This document shows, piece by piece, positions 111-8,350 of a stretch of 64,000 nucleotides of DNA (within the stretch, counting starts at the first letter, position 1; each line of letters starts with the position of its first letter). The stretch is from Burkholderiales bacterium (lineage in GTDB: Bacteria > Pseudomonadota > Gammaproteobacteria > Burkholderiales > Burkholderiaceae_C). The notes below the pieces were generated by a model. It did no database searches and was not told where the DNA came from. It saw only the letters and a program-made list of their open reading frames with translations. Position numbers and translations under genes: made by a program. The stretch lies in assembly GCA_947464185.1 (NCBI GenBank), contig CANHVY010000021.1, positions 1 through 64,000 on the forward strand, written 5' to 3'.

Positions 111-2534
111 TCAGACCCGCAAGCGGGCGCCACAGGCCGCTGCGGCACGTTGCACCGCCGCGGCCACGGTGGCGTCGATACGGGCGTCGATCAGGGTCGT
201 GGCATCGTCCAGAAGTTCGAGCCTGACGGCCAGACTGTGTTCGTCAGCGGTCATGCCGTCCACGGGTTGCGCCGGCTTGTAGATGTCGAACAGAGTGGCC
301 TGGCGCACCAGGCCCTCGGGATCCGACCGCAAGGCCCTCAACAGGGTGTCGTGCGACACATGCTCCCGTACCCACAGGGCCACGTCGCGTTGCGCTGCCT
401 GCTGCCGGGCGACAGGTTCAAACGCAGGCACTGTCCGCATCAGCACGTCGTCCAACGCAAGTTCGAAGAGCATCGGCGCCGAGGGAAGGTCTTGGGCCTG
501 TCGCCACTTGGGGTGGAGTTCACCTACATGGCCCAGCACCCGCCCATTCCATTCCACACGCGCGCACCGTCCGGGATGCATCGCCGGATGCACATCGGCA
601 TGGAAGCTCAGCGCCTGCCCGGCAAGCAGCGCTTGCAGGTCGCCTTTGACGTCGAAGAAGTCGATGGCACGTTCGCGCTCGCCCCATTGCAACTCGTCCA
701 CCGGCCCCCAGGCCAGACCCGCCACACGCGTCGGCTGGTCCACCCCCGCCACCGCTAGAGGCCCATCCTGGACTGAATCGTCACGCCTGAAGACGCGGCC
801 GATCTCGAACACCCGGACCCGGGTCGCCTTGCGCGCGAGGTTCGTCTTGAGCACGCCAACGAGGCTGCCCAGGAGCGAAGAACGCATGACCGCCAGGGGG
901 GCCGCGATGGGGTTCAGCACGCGGATCGGGTCGACGTTGCCCGCCAGTTCCAGCTCCGTGCGCTCTTCGACGAAGCTGAAACTGATGGTCTCGTGATAGC
1001 CCAGGGCGGCCAGCGATCTGCGCAGCGCGTGTGCGGATACCCTCCCTTCGCGCTGCGGACGCGAGATCACCGGCGCGTGCGGAGGGGTCGCGGGCAGGTG
1101 CTGCAGACCGATGACCCGGATGACCTCCTCGATCAGGTCTTCCTCGATGGCCAGATCAAAGCGCCACGCCGGGGGTGTGACCACCAAGGTGTCGCCCTGC
1201 TGCTCGAAGGCCAGCCCCAATCTCTGGAAAACCTGCGCGCACTGCGCAACCGTCAATGGCATGCCCAGCACCTTCGACGCACGCGGTACGCGCAAGGTGA
1301 TGGGTTGACGCTGCGGCAGCGCCAGCGTCTGGTCGTCGATGGGGCCGGCCTCACCACCACAAATCTGCTGGATCAGCGCGGTGATGTGCTCGATGTGCTG
1401 CACCGTGAGCGAGGGATCCACGCCACGCTCGAAGCGGTGTCCGGCGTCGGTGGAGAAGTTGAAACGGCGCGAACGGCCTGCCACCGCCTCGGGCCACCAG
1501 AAGGCGGCCTCGACGTAAACGTTGCGGGTGTCGTCGCTGACGGCCGTGGCGTCCCCGCCCATGATGCCGGCCAACGACTCCACGGCCTGCGTGTCCGCGA
1601 TCACCCCCACCTGCTCGTCCACTTCGATGGTGTTGCCGTTGAGCAGCTTCAAGGTCTCGCCGGGCTGCCCCCAGCGCACCACCAGCTTGTCGTGGATCTT
1701 GTCCAGATCGAAGATGTGGCTGGGCCGTCCGTACTCGAACATCACGTAATTCGAGATGTCCACCAGGGCATTCACCGAGCGCTGGCCGCAACGCGCCAGG
1801 CGGCTCACCATCCAGACGGGCGTCTGGGCGGCCGTGTTCACACCGCGCACGATGCGGCCAGAAAAGCGGCCGCAAAGATCGGCTGCCTTCACCTCCACGG
1901 GCAACTTGTCCTGATGCGTGGGACTCACCGGTGTGAAGGCGGGCGTCTTCAGGGGCGCGCCAGTCAAAGCCGAGACCTCGCGCGCAATCCCGTACACGCT
2001 CAACGCATGCCCCAGGTTGGGCGTGAGCTTCAGCGAGAACAGGGTGTCATCCAACGCCAGAGCCTCACGCACGTCCTGCCCGATGGGCGTGTCGGCGGGC
2101 AGCTCCATCAGGCCGGCATGGTCTTCCGAGAGCTTGAGCTCACGAGCAGAACACAGCATGCCGAAGCTCTCCACCCCACGCAGCTTGCCCACGCCGATCT
2201 TGAAGGGCTTGCCATCCTCTCCGGGGGGCAACTCGGCGCCCATCAGGGCCAGCGGCACGCGGATGCCCGCACGGGCGTTGGGTGCGCCACAGACGATCTG
2301 CAAAGGCCCTTGGGCGGAATGCGGTCCGGCGTCCACCTTGCACACGCGCAGCTTGTCGGCATTGGGGTGCTGCACGGCCTCGAGGATCTCGGCCACGACG
2401 ATGCCGTGGAAGGCAGGGGCGACGGGCTTCAGCTCTTCGACCTCCATGCCCGACATGGTGAGAAGCTCGGCCAAAGCTTGAGTGGTCAACGGCGGATCGC
2501 AGAACTCGCGCAGCCAGGATTCCGGGAATTGCAT
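111..2534 (-). CDS. pheT: Phenylalanine--tRNA ligase beta subunit
   Basis: This is the large subunit of the (alpha-beta)2 phenylalanyl-tRNA synthetase, which charges tRNA-Phe in the cytoplasm. At 807 aa it is full length for the family. It begins with the typical MQFPESWLREFC. An OB-fold tRNA-binding domain follows (about residues 40-150, containing VCKVDAG and VCGAPN), then the B3/B4 editing region and the B5 and catalytic-like core (HRFERGVDPSL). The C-terminal FDX-ACB anticodon-binding domain covers about the last 95 residues (PAFEPVARQQAAQRDVALWV). It lies 76 nt after pheS and 26 nt before ihfA on the same strand, so it is part of the long thrS-to-ihfA operon. Confidence 0.97.
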   Translation of the reverse strand: MQFPESWLREFCDPPLTTQALAELLTMSGMEVEELKPVAPAFHGIVVAEILEAVQHPNADKLRVCKVDAGPHSAQGPLQIVCGAPNARAGIRVPLALMGAELPPGEDGKPFKIGVGKLRGVESFGMLCSARELKLSEDHAGLMELPADTPIGQDVREALALDDTLFSLKLTPNLGHALSVYGIAREVSALTGAPLKTPAFTPVSPTHQDKLPVEVKAADLCGRFSGRIVRGVNTAAQTPVWMVSRLARCGQRSVNALVDISNYVMFEYGRPSHIFDLDKIHDKLVVRWGQPGETLKLLNGNTIEVDEQVGVIADTQAVESLAGIMGGDATAVSDDTRNVYVEAAFWWPEAVAGRSRRFNFSTDAGHRFERGVDPSLTVQHIEHITALIQQICGGEAGPIDDQTLALPQRQPITLRVPRASKVLGMPLTVAQCAQVFQRLGLAFEQQGDTLVVTPPAWRFDLAIEEDLIEEVIRVIGLQHLPATPPHAPVISRPQREGRVSAHALRRSLAALGYHETISFSFVEERTELELAGNVDPIRVLNPIAAPLAVMRSSLLGSLVGVLKTNLARKATRVRVFEIGRVFRRDDSVQDGPLAVAGVDQPTRVAGLAWGPVDELQWGERERAIDFFDVKGDLQALLAGQALSFHADVHPAMHPGRCARVEWNGRVLGHVGELHPKWRQAQDLPSAPMLFELALDDVLMRTVPAFEPVARQQAAQRDVALWVREHVSHDTLLRALRSDPEGLVRQATLFDIYKPAQPVDGMTADEHSLAVRLELLDDATTLIDARIDATVAAAVQRAAAACGARLRV

Positions 2535-2610: not shown

Positions 2611-3654
2611 TCAGCGGAACTGCGACAGGAAGCGCAGGTCGTTCTCGAAGAAGAGTCGCAAATCGCTGACGCCGTAGCGCAGCATGGTCAGGCGGTCGGG
2701 GCCCATGCCGAAGGCGAAGCCGATGTATCGCTCCGGGTCCAGGCCGTAGTTGCGCACCACGTTCGGGTGCACCTGGCCAGAGCCCGCCAGTTCGAGCCAG
2801 CGGCCTTTCAGCGGGCCGGTGGCGAACATCATGTCGATCTCGGCGCTGGGCTCGGTGAAGGGAAAGTAGCTGGGACGAAACCGTGTCTCGATGCCTTCAT
2901 CCTCGAAGAACCGACGCAGGAAGTCGGTGAAGACGACCTTCAGATCTTTGAAACTGATGTGTTCGCCGATCCACAGTCCCTCGCATTGATGAAACATCGG
3001 CGAGTGCGTGGCATCGCTGTCCACGCGGTAGGTGCGGCCCGGCGCGATCACGCGGATCTCGGGCATCGGGTCCTGGCCGGCATGGGCCGCAGCGTGCATG
3101 CGGGCGTAGCGTACCTGCATGGGGCTGGTGTGTGGGCGCAGGTTGAGCCAGCGCCCGTCAGCGTCCTTCACGTCCACGTAGAAGGTGTCCTGCATCGAAC
3201 GCGCCGGGTGATTCTCCGGGTTGTTCAAGGCCGTGAAGCTCATCCAGTCGGTCTCGATCTCGGGGCCTTCGGCCACGTCAAAACCCATGGAGCCGAAGAT
3301 GGCCTCGATGCGCTCGATCGTGCGGCTGACCGGATGCAGGCTGCCCGGCCCTCTCTGACGGCCGGGCAGCGTGACATCCAGGGCCTGGGCCTTCAACTGC
3401 GCCTGCAGTTCAGCGTCGGCCAAGGCCTCGCGACGGGCCTGCAGAGCCTGCTCGATGCCCATTTTCAATCGGTTGATGTCAGCGCCGCGGGATTTCTTTT
3501 CCTCGGGGCTCAAAGCGCCCAAGCCTTTGAGCAGCTCGGTCACGCGACCGAACTTGCCGAGGAAGCGGGCCTTGGCGTTCTCCAGTTCTGCTGCGGTGGG
3601 TGCAGCATCAAACTCGGAGGCAGCCTGCGCGAGCAGGGGATCGAGATCGTTCAT
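2611..3654 (-). CDS. pheS: Phenylalanine--tRNA ligase alpha subunit
   Basis: This is the catalytic alpha subunit of phenylalanyl-tRNA synthetase, a class II enzyme that forms Phe-AMP and transfers Phe to tRNA-Phe together with PheT. The 347-aa length is normal. An N-terminal coiled-coil arm (about residues 1-90) precedes the class II core. Visible core motifs are [14 protein letters not shown] (motif 1 region), FHQCEGLWI (motif 2 region) and [13 protein letters not shown] (motif 3). The gene follows rplT by about 105 nt. That gap holds a strong hairpin and then an intrinsic terminator (separate entries), so its expression is probably attenuated relative to the upstream ribosomal genes. Confidence 0.97.
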
Positions 3655-3686: not shown

Positions 3687-3716
3687 AAAAGAGGCCGCCA
3701 CGAGGTGACGGCCTCT
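3687..3716 (-). terminator. Intrinsic terminator/attenuator between rplT and pheS
   Basis: On the minus strand a perfect 8-bp stem, AGAGGCCG/CGGCCTCT, is followed directly by TTTT. Its loop contains CACCTCGTG, which can itself pair and lengthen the helix. It sits 43 nt downstream of the rplT stop and about 30 nt upstream of the pheS ATG. Because both neighbours are read in the same direction, it should act as a partial terminator that lowers pheST relative to rplT. E. coli pheST is also attenuated, through the PheM leader peptide. I see no Phe-rich leader ORF here, so the read-through mechanism is unknown. Confidence 0.75.
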
Positions 3717-3759: not shown

Positions 3760-4116
3760 TCAAGCCAGTTGAGCCTTCACCTTGTCCACGATGCTGGCAA
3801 AGCCAGCAGGGTCGTTGACAGCCAGATCGGCGAGGACCTTGCGGTCGATGTCGATCTGCGCCTTCTTCAGGCCGGCCATGAACTTGCTGTAGGTGACGCC
3901 CATCGACCGGGAAGCCGCGTTGATACGGGCGATCCACAGTTGACGGAACACCCGCTTGCGGGTGCGGCGGTCACGGTAGGCGTACTGACCGGCCTTCATC
4001 ACCGCCTGCTTGGCGATGCGGAAGACGTTCTTGCGGCGGCCGCGGAAGCCCTTGGCGAGCTTCAGGATCTTCTTGTGGCGGGCGTGTGCGGTGACACCAC
4101 GTTTGACGCGAGGCAT
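3760..4116 (-). CDS. rplT: 50S ribosomal protein L20
   Basis: L20 is needed early in 50S assembly and binds 23S rRNA. The 118-aa length is standard and the basic sequence opens [19 protein letters not shown], followed by the conserved GYRGRR-like GFRGRRKN and [16 protein letters not shown] segments. It follows rpmI by 29 nt. In E. coli L20 represses rpmI-rplT translation by binding the leader mRNA. Whether that operator exists here cannot be decided by eye, although strong hairpins occupy the infC-rpmI spacer. Confidence 0.98.
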
Positions 4117-4145: not shown

Positions 4146-4349
4146 TCAGAGACCGGCAAACGGCAGCATCGCTGCCATGTGGCCCATGTTGGTCTCGTGC
4201 ACAGTGGCCGCGCCGCGCAGATGGCGCTTGCGGGTGGTGCTCTTCTTGGTGAGGATGTGGCGCTTGAACGCCTGTCCACGCTTGACGGTACCGCCGGGGC
4301 GGACGCGGAAGCGCTTCTTGGCGCTGCTCTTGGTCTTCATCTTGGGCAT
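4146..4349 (-). CDS. rpmI: 50S ribosomal protein L35
   Basis: This is a small basic 50S protein of 67 aa, the family's usual size. It begins [20 protein letters not shown] and ends in the burkholderial pattern [16 protein letters not shown]. An AGGAG Shine-Dalgarno sequence precedes the ATG. It lies between infC and rplT in the canonical order, and its long upstream spacer carries two hairpins described separately. Confidence 0.97.
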
Positions 4350-4573: not shown

Positions 4574-5122
4574 CTACTTGCGCTTGGGCGCCAGCACCAT
4601 GATCATCTGGCGGCCTTCAAGCTTGGGCATGTGTTCCACGACCGCCACGTCGGCCAGCTCGTCACGGATGCGCTCCAACAGGCGCATGCCGATGTCCTGG
4701 TGCGTGATCTCGCGGCCGCGGAACCGCAGTGTGACCTTGCCCTTGTCGCCGTCATCGGCGATGAAGCGCCGCAGGTTGCGCATCTTGATCTGGTAGTCAC
4801 CCTCGTCGGTGCCCGGACGGAACTTGACTTCCTTGATCTCGATGACCTTTTGCTTGGACTTGGCCTCCGCGGCCTTCTTCTGCTCCTGGTACTTGAACTT
4901 GCCGTAGTCCATGAGGCGACACACCGGAGGGTCTGCCACAGCCGCGATCTCGACCAGATCTACATCGAGCTCACCGGCCATTCGAAGCGCGTCCATCAAG
5001 CTGACGATGCCGAGCGGCTCATTCTCGACACCGTTGAGGCGCACCTGCGGCGCCATGATTTCGCGGTTCAGCCTGTGCTTGCGCTCCGCGTTCGGCACGC
5101 GGCGGTCCATGAAGGTAGCGAT
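4574..5122 (-). CDS. infC: Translation initiation factor IF-3 (AUC start)
   Basis: IF-3 dissociates idle ribosomes and proofreads the initiator tRNA-start codon match. The ORF track begins at an ATG (5110). I place the start four codons upstream at an in-frame ATC (5122-5120). It has a GAGGGG Shine-Dalgarno sequence exactly 8 nt before it, while the ATG would be 20 nt away. This gives (I)[21 protein letters not shown], in line with related proteins. Use of a non-AUG start is the known basis of infC autoregulation (AUU in E. coli). The N-domain ([13 protein letters not shown]), linker, and C-domain ([12 protein letters not shown]) are intact. The C-terminus ends APKRK. Confidence 0.93.
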
Positions 5123-5194: not shown

Positions 5195-7102
5195 TCAGGC
5201 CTTGCGGGCAATGTCACCCAGCAGCTTCGCAGAGAAGTCTTCTAGGGGCATCACGCCCAGGTCAATAGACCCTCGTGCGCGCACCGCAACAGCCCCGCTT
5301 GCCTTCTCCTTGTCACCCACGACCAGGATGTACGGGACCTTTTGCATCGAATGCTCACGGATTTTATAGTTGATTTTCTCGTTTCGAGCATCAACCGACA
5401 CCCTAACTCCTTGTTTTTGCAGCGTTTTCGCCACTTCTCTTGCGTATTCGTGCTGTTGATCGGTGATCGGGCACACCACCGCCTGCTCAGGCGCCAGCCA
5501 GGCTGGCAGCGCTCCGGCGTGCTGTTCGATCAGGATGCCGATGAAACGCTCCAGGCTGCCGACGATGGCACGGTGCAACATCACGGGGTGGCGACGTGAG
5601 CCGTCGTCGGACACGTACTCGGCGTCCAGGCGCTCGGCCATGGAGAAGTCCACCTGGATGGTGCCGCACTGCCACTGCCGGCCGATGGCATCTTTGAGGG
5701 TGTACTCCACCTTGGGGCCGTAGAACGCGCCGTCGCCTTCGGCGATGACGAATTCCACGCCCGAGCGGCGCAGGCTCTCCATCAGCGCATGCTCGGCCTT
5801 GTCCCAGACCTCATCAGACCCGATGCGCGCTGCCGGACGGGTGGCCACCTTGTAGAGGATGTCGGTGAAGCCGAAGTCTGCGTAGACCTTCTGCAGCAGT
5901 GCGGTGTAGGCCACGCACTCGTCCAGGATCATGTCCTCGGTGCAGAAGATGTGGCCGTCGTCCTGCGTGAAGCCGCGTACCCGCATGATGCCGTGCAATC
6001 CGCCCGTGGGCTCGTTGCGGTGGCATTGGCCGAACTCGCCATAGCGCAGCGGCAGGTCGCGGTAGCTCTTGATGCCCTGCTTGAAGATCAGGATGTGGCC
6101 CGGGCAGTTCATCGGCTTCAGGGCGTAGTCGCGCTTCTCGCTCTCGGTCGTGAACATGTTGTCGCGGTACTTGTCCCAGTGGCCCGTCTTTTCCCACAGC
6201 GCCTTGTCCAGGATCTGCGGACCCTTGACCTCCTGGTAGCCGTTGTCACGGTACACCTGGCGCATGTACTGCTCCACGCCCTGCCACACCGTCCAGCCCT
6301 TGGGGTGCCAGAACACCACGCCGGGGGCGTGGTCGTCGATGTGGAAGAAGTCCAGTTCACGGCCGAGCTTGCGGTGGTCGCGCTTCTCGGCCTCCTCCAG
6401 CATGAGGAGGTACTTCTGCAGGTCGTCCTTGGTGGCCCAGGCCGTGCCGTAAATGCGCTGCAGCATCTCGTTGCGGTGGTCGCCGCGCCAGTAGGCGCCG
6501 GCCACCTTCATCAGCTTGAAGTGCTTGAGCTTGCCGGTACTGGGCACGTGCGGGCCGCGGCACAGGTCCTCGAAGCCGCCTTCGCGGTAGAGGGACACGT
6601 CCTGCCCCTCGGGGATGCTGGCGATGATCTCGGCCTTGTAATGCTCGCCCAGGCCTTTGAAGTAGGCCACGGCCTCGTCGCGCGGCAGCACGCGGCGCTC
6701 GACCTTCTCGTCCTTGCGGGCGAGTTCGGTCATGCGCGCCTCGATGGCAGCCAAGTCCTCCGGCGTGAACGGACGCTTGTAGGCGAAGTCGTAATAGAAG
6801 CCGTGCTCGATGACCGGGCCGATGGTGACTTGCGCCTCGGGAAACAGTTGCTTGACGGCGTAGGCCAACAGGTGGGCCGTGGAATGCCGGATCATCTCCA
6901 AGCCGTCGGCATCGCGGTCGGTGACGATGGCCAGGCGGGCATCGGTGTCGATGCGGCGGCTCAGATCGACGGGCTGGCCATCGACCTTGCCACCCAGGGC
7001 GGCCTTGGCCAGGCCGGCACCGATGGAGGCGGCCACCTCGGCCACGGTCACGGGAGCAGGGAATGCACGTTGCGAGCCGTCGGGCAGCGTGATGTTCAGC
7101 AT
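5195..7102 (-). CDS. thrS: Threonine--tRNA ligase
   Basis: This class II synthetase charges tRNA-Thr in the cytoplasm. The 635-aa length is normal. The N-terminal TGS domain begins [14 protein letters not shown]. The second editing domain carries [15 protein letters not shown] and the SXXRGPHVP-like region. The catalytic core shows [22 protein letters not shown] (motif 2) and the C-terminal [13 protein letters not shown] (motif 3), followed by the anticodon-binding domain. A TGGAG Shine-Dalgarno sequence lies 7 nt before the ATG. It is the first gene of the operon reading through infC. Its leader has a Thr-rich mini-ORF and terminator hairpin, suggesting attenuation by charged tRNA-Thr. Confidence 0.98.
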
Positions 7103-7119: not shown

Positions 7120-7145
7120 AAAAAAGCGCGGTGGGGGCCGCGCTT
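7120..7145 (-). terminator. Intrinsic terminator in the thrS leader
   Basis: The minus strand folds into a perfect 8-bp stem, AAGCGCGG/CCGCGCTT, with a 6-nt loop. It runs directly into six T residues that end 18 nt before the thrS ATG. It cannot serve the plus strand because no T-run follows there. Six bases of its ascending arm (GCGGCC, 7136-7141) are also complementary to an upstream GGCCGC (7175-7180), giving a mutually exclusive antiterminator. It may instead be the late terminator of the patatin gene, whose stop is about 135 nt upstream. Confidence 0.75.
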
Positions 7146-7184
7146 CATGGGTCATTAATTGGGGACGTGATGATGCGGCCGGGG

Positions 7185-7226
7185 TCAGACCTCGGTGAGG
7201 GAGGAGGACGTAGTCCGCGGTGTCAT
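7185..7226 (-). CDS. Putative thrS leader peptide (Thr/Ser-rich)
   Basis: A 13-codon ORF encodes MTPRTTSSSLTEV, with four Thr and three Ser codons. It ends 40 nt before the terminator hairpin upstream of thrS. An in-frame upstream ATG at 7256 would give a 23-residue version starting MARTGKARR with one more Thr. An AAGG lies 11 nt before the shorter start; the longer start has no clear Shine-Dalgarno sequence. Threonine codons are enriched in just the place expected for ribosome-mediated attenuation of a threonyl-tRNA synthetase. This is inference; no translation evidence is visible. Confidence 0.45.
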   Translation of the reverse strand: MTPRTTSSSLTEV

Positions 7227-7272
7227 AACCCGTCGTGCCTTTCCCGTTCTTGCCATCGTTGAAGGTAAAAGC

Positions 7273-7278
7273 ATTGTA
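7273..7278 (-). promoter_or_regulatory. Candidate -10 element for the thrS operon
   Basis: The minus strand reads TACAAT, a good sigma-70 -10 hexamer, preceded by TGAC, which resembles an extended -10. No good -35 is visible at 16-18 nt. It lies at the very end of the upstream patatin gene, so the transcript would have a leader of about 165 nt that includes the mini-ORF and hairpin. The call rests on the hexamer and its position. Confidence 0.4.
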
Positions 7279-7279
7279 G

Positions 7280-8350
7280 TCAGAGCAATGGCAGCGGCTC
7301 GAATGAATCGCGCATCGCCAGACCGGCAAACTCTTCGGCGAGTTGCTGGCTCTGCGCGACGGCCGTGCGCCATACGCGCTGCCGCCCGGCTTCATCGTCG
7401 GCAAAGGTCTTGAAGTCGCTGCGGTCCGGCAGCTTGCCGCCCGGCAGCGTGGCCACCCAATCGGGGCTGGGGCTCAGCAGCACCAGGTTGTCCAGCGCGG
7501 GCGTGGCCCTGTGGCGCGCCTTCCAGGCCTTGTCCAGCCAGCCCGGCACCACCGTGGGCTGGAAGTGCGGATACAGCACCAGACCGTCGTCCATGTCGGC
7601 ATACGGCCAGTGCAGGTGGTAGTCGGTGATGCCGCCATCCCAGTAGGCGCCGCGCGGGCCGCCTGGAATGTCGTGCACCGCCTTGAGCCAGAACGGGATG
7701 GAGCAACTGGCGAGCACGGCCGGTGAGAGATTGCCCGCATTCAGCACCGCTTGCCGGGTGCGGAAGTCTTTCAGCGCCATTGGCAGCGGATCGCGCGGGT
7801 CGCTGAACACCACACGCTCCAGCCAAGCCCCCAGCGCGCGGCGGTGCACCGCGTTGGCAACAAAGGCCCCGGCGTACCCCAGGGGCGTGCGCAGGCGCCC
7901 TTCCCTGCCCAGCACGTGGCGCCCGTGGCTCGTGACCACATGCAGGCGCCGGCGCGGGTGCGACAGGATCTCGCCGGCTCGGGCACCCAGGCGCTCCAGG
8001 ATTTTCTGCCCGAAAGCGCGGCTCACCACCTCGGCCGTGGGTTGTCGCCCGGGCTCGTGGTCGTAAGTCTGGGTGACATAGTCTTCGGCCAGCTGCGCCA
8101 AGGCCGCATCGGCGTCCGGCAGGCAGGCGCAGGCCATGCGCCAGGCGCCGATGGAGGCGCCCACGAGGTGGATGACCTGCGGCGCATCTCTCAGCCACTC
8201 AGCGAACAGAAACCGGTCCAGCGGGTTGAGCACCAGGCCCTTGGGCCCGCCCGCAGCCCCCGGCAGCAGGCGCACGTCCTGCGCGCGCAGGCCTTGCTCA
8301 CGCAGAAGGGCCGCAGCGCGCGGGCCGGCATGCACCTGGAGCGCCTGCAC
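7280..8350 (-). CDS. Patatin-like phospholipase family protein
   Basis: This is a predicted lipid acyl hydrolase of 356 aa. The patatin Ser-Asp dyad is visible: nucleophile elbow GASIG at residues 64-68 (Ser66) and WDGGITDYH near residue 235. An oxyanion-type loop, GAAGGPKGL, lies near residues 31-39. I see no signal peptide or membrane segment, so it is probably cytoplasmic. It lies upstream of thrS on the same strand but is separated from it by thrS's own leader. The next gene upstream is the M20 amidohydrolase, about 96 nt away. The substrate is unknown. Confidence 0.85.
   Translation of the reverse strand: MQALQVHAGPRAAALLREQGLRAQDVRLLPGAAGGPKGLVLNPLDRFLFAEWLRDAPQVIHLVGASIGAWRMACACLPDADAALAQLAEDYVTQTYDHEPGRQPTAEVVSRAFGQKILERLGARAGEILSHPRRRLHVVTSHGRHVLGREGRLRTPLGYAGAFVANAVHRRALGAWLERVVFSDPRDPLPMALKDFRTRQAVLNAGNLSPAVLASCSIPFWLKAVHDIPGGPRGAYWDGGITDYHLHWPYADMDDGLVLYPHFQPTVVPGWLDKAWKARHRATPALDNLVLLSPSPDWVATLPGGKLPDRSDFKTFADDEAGRQRVWRTAVAQSQQLAEEFAGLAMRDSFEPLPLL

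Follow-up and report, generated by a model that had tools for sequence, protein, structure and literature searches.

The 5' leader of thrS in the DNA analysed here (a stretch of 64,000 nucleotides, called the window) is very probably, at a rough probability of 0.88, a ribosome-mediated transcription attenuator in which a leader peptide senses the charging of tRNA-Thr. An attenuator of this kind had been proposed in the first-pass annotation on the basis of a TACAAT box, a Thr-rich mini-ORF, a GGCCGC/GCGGCC pair and a terminator with six Ts. All of these elements are found by direct reading where they had been placed, and the comparison with relatives supports the interpretation through the reading frame, the Thr codons and the structures (Table 1).

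Table 1. Elements of the thrS leader and genes of the thrS-pheT cluster in the window.
Feature	Position	Strand	Basis or remark
Candidate -10 box of the thrS promoter, TACAAT	7278-7273	-	Read directly from the sequence
Shine-Dalgarno-like site GGGAAAGG of the leader ORF	7238..7245	-	Alignments; 11 nt from the ATG
Leader peptide ORF MTPRTTSSSLTEV with stop	7226-7185	-	Direct reading; conserved frame, Thr enrichment, stop position
Segment 1, CCGCGGA, within the ORF	7214..7220	-	Proposed to pair with segment 2 in the absence of leader translation; folds pair GCGG with CCGC
Segment 2, GGCCGC, 5' half of the antiterminator	7180-7175	-	Exact complement of 7141-7136; covariation
Segment 3, GCGGCC, 5' arm of the terminator with first loop bases, 3' half of the antiterminator	7141-7136	-	
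Intrinsic terminator with T run, 9 pairs including one G-U	7146-7120	-	Terminator scan and fold; kept in 95 leaders
thrS, threonyl-tRNA synthetase, the putatively regulated gene (ATG at 7102)	5195..7102	-	Pfam tRNA-synt_2b, tRNA_SAD, TGS, HGTP_anticodon
infC	4574-5110	-	Pfam IF3; 3' of thrS
rpmI	4146-4349	-	Between infC and rplT; named from the ORF translation
rplT	3760-4116	-	Pfam L20
pheS	2611-3654	-	Pfam PheS
pheT	111-2534	-	Behind pheS; named from the ORF translation

The leader ORF of the window reads ATG ACA CCG CGG ACT ACG TCC TCC TCC CTC ACC GAG GTC TGA, and 4 of its 13 codons specify Thr (ACA, ACT, ACG and ACC). The tract around the Shine-Dalgarno-like site, (A)AGAGCGAGAAAGGCA, is strongly conserved in the leader alignments. 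Downstream of the ORF, the terminator stem is formed by AAGCGCGG (7145-7138) and CCGCGCTT (7131-7124) and is lengthened by a G-U pair (7146/7123); the first three of the six Ts at 7125-7120 are able to pair within the stem. The antiterminator, a perfect 6 bp in the window and mutually exclusive with the terminator, overlaps the terminator 5' arm, as expected of an attenuator. Farther along the cluster, the interval from rplT to pheS contains a terminator-like hairpin of 12 pairs (3690-3716, minus strand), possibly an internal terminator or a processing site of the thrS-pheT cluster.

In the window taken by itself, the isolated terminator hairpin folds at -14.4 kcal/mol against -5.3 for shuffled sequences (z -5.4), and a simple terminator scan returns 8 matches where 6.1 are expected. 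The duplex of segments 2 and 3 reaches a z of about -2; the 2:3 and 1:2 folds are no better than shuffles (z -0.67 and -0.66), and the fold of the whole leader is uninformative (z -0.74). A 19-nt core occurs once in the window, where 0.02 occurrences are expected with at most 3 mismatches. This core recurs ahead of thrS across the Burkholderiales, and the genome holds a single true copy of the leader, before thrS. Because the competing folds of the window stand near chance (z about -0.7) and generic terminators are common, the case rests on comparison; it is conservation, rather than single-sequence statistics, that lifts the leader above chance.

A search with the ThrS protein yielded 80 Burkholderiales loci, and 79 sequences with upstream DNA, the window included, were compared. 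A leader ORF opening with MTPRT precedes thrS in 50 of the 79, carriers being recognized by the block GGTTATGACACCGCGAACTAC at no more than 6 mismatches in 21; one of the 50 is divergent (L034, which reads ITPRI and has one Thr). These ORFs mostly span 10-17 codons with 2-9 Thr codons, and the block is followed in nearly all 50 by a AAGCGCGG..CCGCGCTTTTTT-type terminator. The ORF is absent from the other 29 close relatives, many of which (about 20) retain a terminator, apparently as a remnant or as part of a different control. In Limnohabitans and similar genomes (L018, L024, L025, L047, L049, L055, L063, L065, L071 and others), the ORF is lost and a perfect terminator is retained. In these genomes the terminator starts only about 15-35 nt 3' of the -10-like box, so thrS transcription would have to pass it.

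A covariance model built from 44 leaders was searched against 300 Burkholderiales genomes. Strong full-length matches, nearly all directly upstream of thrS, are found in further families, including f1, f8, f10, f23, f32, f35, f39, f47 and others (f-numbers are anonymous family codes), with peptides such as MTPRTTTEVFTRR (f8), MTPLTTLERLIR (f23), MTPRTCFFLR (f39), MTPRTLTETFSERR (f32) and MSPRTCFSVRG (f44). The f44 leaders L127 and L129, with the peptides MSPRTCFSVRG and MSARTSWLVTR, have an altered start context, GAAATGTCA, and one or two Thr codons. Two other matches within the order (L123, L126) proved to be terminators behind unrelated genes and were set aside. In a check independent of the model, a ThrS protein search located the gene in 137 of 140 genomes, and the DNA upstream was read at 60 loci, chiefly from the other families. 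ORFs of 9-18 aa containing Arg-Thr stand ahead of a terminator there too: MFRTSTTTQS (f5), MTLRTCTKH (f6), MQLNRTTTTS (f14), MSFRTTTTGTLNLG (f22), MGFRTCMPDSMHRF (f24), MFKRTTTTRISR (f28), MSFRTRMTTDA (f49) and MAVRTTTTHP (f51). The kernel common to these divergent leaders is Arg-Thr, written CGAAC[TG].

The leader is found before thrS in at least 18 of the 51 sampled families of Burkholderiales (f1, 3, 5, 6, 8, 10, 14, 22, 23, 24, 28, 32, 35, 39, 44, 47, 49 and 51), and possibly also in f4, f13 and f20. Outside the order, a second model applied class-wide (369 genomes) and phylum-wide (299 genomes), with strict filtering of these large scans, detected no genuine leader; the matches G594, G528 and G734 are all plain terminators, none upstream of thrS. 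Across the thrS leaders compared, many lineages share the whole combination of Thr codons, frame and stop of the ORF, antiterminator segment and terminator, as the proposal of an attenuator had anticipated; these relatives keep the Thr codons and the competing stems.

In 95 aligned leaders, Thr accounts for 21% of the in-frame codons after codon 5; in the two shifted frames this share drops to 1.4% and 3.4%. Every one of the 95 has Thr at codon 5, and at least 57 have it at codon 6, with synonymous variation among ACG (32), ACA (13) and ACC (12). The in-frame stop is positioned at a median of codon 13 (interquartile 12-13.5), compared with 41 and 37 codons in the other frames. Judged from this in-frame Thr excess and the fixed stop position, selection maintains the frame for a peptide that contains Thr and hardly varies in length. 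The 95 leaders thereby combine a short ORF, codons of the sensed amino acid and a selected frame, as an attenuator of this type requires.

The best-kept core of the leader, unexpectedly, is Arg-Thr, usually in the rare codons CGA-ACU. Arg4 is encoded by CGA in 77 of the 85 leaders that have Arg there, whereas, within the same thrS genes, CGA accounts for only 3.3% of Arg codons. Positions 2 and 5 carry the rarest Thr codons, ACA and ACT, which make up 4.5% and 6.2% of Thr codons in these genes. Eleven divergent leaders, read by eye (f5, f6, f14, f22, f24, f28, f49, f51), also use CGA. Some lineages (f44, f47, f39) have only one or two Thr codons, few for a classical run of control codons. The rare CGA-ACU core may serve decoding speed or RNA structure. 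A rather unlikely extension would place the heart of the attenuator in the rare pair Arg-CGA and Thr-ACU/ACG rather than in a series of Thr codons. The ribosome, slowed by the decoding of CGA, would then be kept waiting directly ahead of a single decisive Thr codon, and a leader with one or two Thr would be a sensitive charging sensor, a single Thr being enough in f44 (MSPRTCFSVRG). With its rare CGA-ACU core, the leader makes it possible to test what minimum of control codons an attenuator requires.

The terminator is present between the ORF and thrS in 95 of 95 leaders, as befits an attenuator; for the close relatives among them, those from the ThrS search, it was a condition of entry. With segment 2 taken as the segment best able to pair with the terminator 5' arm, its start lies at most 15 nt from the stop codon in 94% of the 95 leaders, and in 100% the distance from Thr5 to this start exceeds 15 nt, which is the masking geometry of an attenuator. 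A ribosome at the stop codon would cover segment 2, and one stalled at Thr5 would not.

Covariation of the antiterminator is moderate. The base following CGCGG in the terminator and its segment 2 partner change together: they are paired in 45 of 65 leaders against a permutation mean of 30.6 (A with T in 13/14, C with G in 25/40). In 25 phylogenetic contrasts the own segment 2 partner pairs in 33 of 50 cases, a swapped one in 19 of 50. Over the whole leader set, cognate 2:3 pairings beat swapped ones by permutation, a result that relatedness may inflate. In a swap test between nearest relatives, the own pairing is better in 13 cases and the swapped one in 18, so that no co-evolution is seen among close relatives. 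The 2:3 signal is thus one between clades, the whole-set permutation P values are not claimed as proof, and the grade is set by cognate pairings winning in the whole set but not between nearest relatives. Covariation of the anti-antiterminator is weak: some leaders of the Comamonadaceae type have a strong 1:2 helix (GCGAACT with AGTTCGC), and across leaders the cognate-versus-swapped comparison gives a P of 0.07, the pairing not being general.

The transcription start, termination, stalling and response to threonine are predicted from these sequences as follows. RNA polymerase would start near 7266 and transcribe the 13-codon ORF. When Thr-tRNA is ample, the ribosome would reach the stop codon (7187-7185) and cover segment 2, the terminator would form, and transcription would halt before thrS. 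When Thr-tRNA is short, the ribosome would wait at Thr codons 5/6, leaving segment 2 free for segment 3; this 2:3 pairing would block the terminator, and thrS and the genes behind it would be transcribed. With no translation, segment 1 may pair with segment 2, again favouring termination.

A promoter scan of the window lists no minus-strand promoter at TACAAT, and no good -35 match was found. Of 48 relatives, 30 have a TAAAAT, TACAAT or TAGAAT box at a distance of 45-61 nt upstream of the leader start codon, and in the window's family the leader has its own promoter-like box. The gene upstream of the leader in the window is patatin-like, lies on the same strand as thrS and ends at 7280, and in several ORF-less families the terminator directly follows a tRNA-Val gene; both observations would suit a hairpin that is a mere 3' terminator of the upstream gene, with an incidental mini-ORF. 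Such an origin is very improbable, as 36 close relatives retain the leader without the patatin-like gene (10 leader-bearing relatives have it), there are -10-like boxes in the interval separating the leader from the upstream gene, and the in-frame Thr excess and fixed stop position would be left unexplained. Since the upstream gene differs among leader-bearing relatives, the leader belongs to thrS. A tRNA-Val(GAC) gene, absent from the window and its close relatives, lies immediately upstream of thrS in many Burkholderiales families (L101, L107, L118, L137, L145, L157, L172, L181 and others); with this gene directly upstream, the leader there may be part of a tRNA-thrS transcript.

The thrS gene of E. 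coli is subject to autoregulation at an operator within the leader, where ThrRS binds a tRNA-like element and translation is blocked. Binding of ThrRS to the leader RNA with termination as the output, the ORF again being incidental, could by analogy account for the tract AGAGCGAGAAAGGCA..GGTTATGACACCGCGAACT, which is conserved within near families beyond the needs of the peptide. Hardly any weight is given to this reading: the conserved tract contains the in-frame ORF, its part 5' of Arg-Thr is lost across families (f5, f14, f28 and f51 retain only CGAAC[TG]) whereas the in-frame Thr codons are kept, and in an unsystematic look at the window leader fold no tRNA-Thr-like arm was noticed. The start context GGTTATGA (7223-7230, minus strand), kept in most near families, is complementary to initiator tRNA in the anticodon loop region; the idea that it is kept for extra pairing with this tRNA was rejected, the context being absent in f5, f14, f28, f44 and f51. 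The prominence of Arg4-Thr5 as the best-kept part, together with leaders of one or two Thr, might instead point to a nascent-peptide or general translation sensor, stalled through the Arg-Thr dipeptide or by drugs rather than by tRNA-Thr charging. It is the least probable of the readings, in view of three points: most leaders show an excess of Thr at codons 6-9, with synonymous variation; Leu or Pro takes the place of Arg4 in f23 and in part of f10; and the controlled gene is thrS itself.

Rfam returns for the window no relevant family at gathering or relaxed thresholds (E up to 5), no match to Thr_leader (RF00506) at gathering or at E up to 5, and no T-box at gathering or relaxed thresholds. 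Regulation by charged tRNA-Thr as proposed here shares its parts with the enterobacterial attenuators (the thr leader, pheST/pheA, trp and his): an ORF enriched in codons for the amino acid that is sensed, a stop codon adjoining the antiterminator segment, and an intrinsic terminator before the first gene. It differs from the enterobacterial thr leader in that the synthetase gene thrS would be controlled rather than biosynthesis, the peptide is shorter and Rfam finds no match. The E. coli operator is likewise leader-based control of thrS in a proteobacterium, but an ORF and a terminator take its place here. In the thrS T-box of Bacillota, uncharged tRNA binds the RNA directly and no ORF is involved; there, too, tRNA-Thr charging governs premature termination of thrS, whereas the present leader has an ORF and no T-box match.

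Two further proposed systems place a leader ORF before a synthetase gene. The uORFC-8-2 motif upstream of cysS in Rhodobacterales, for which ribosome-mediated attenuation has been proposed, likewise has a synthetase gene after a uORF with codons of its own amino acid, but it uses Cys codons, occurs in alphaproteobacteria and has no reported sequence in common with the thrS leader (PMC8632094). In Streptomyces lividans, an actinobacterium, a Thr-containing leader peptide, thrL (MKRVRPFLETTPGFVPAR), has likewise been proposed upstream of thrS, but on a leaderless transcript, with two adjacent Thr, a different peptide and no clear Rho-independent terminator (PMC8079986). The literature searched contains no betaproteobacterial thrS leader, in agreement with the earlier statement that none is well described; the 2010 survey of synthetase attenuators (Lopatovskaya et al.), which may list it, lies outside that scope. 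Naville and Gautheret 2010 (PMC2965389) mention no thrS leader peptide in their main text, nor do transcriptome papers on Bordetella, Cupriavidus and Neisseria. Leader-peptide attenuation is an old mechanism; its betaproteobacterial thrS case appears new in the literature searched and well supported by sequence.

The set of leaders yields a ready covariance model. With the leader described here, the E. coli operator and the Bacillota T-box, the number of unrelated leader controls of bacterial thrS would come to at least three. At low levels of charged tRNA-Thr the switch would increase the synthesis of ThrRS, and infC, rpmI, rplT and pheST, judged by their position, would also come under its control, so that many betaproteobacteria would gain a defined regulatory mechanism for an essential synthetase cluster.
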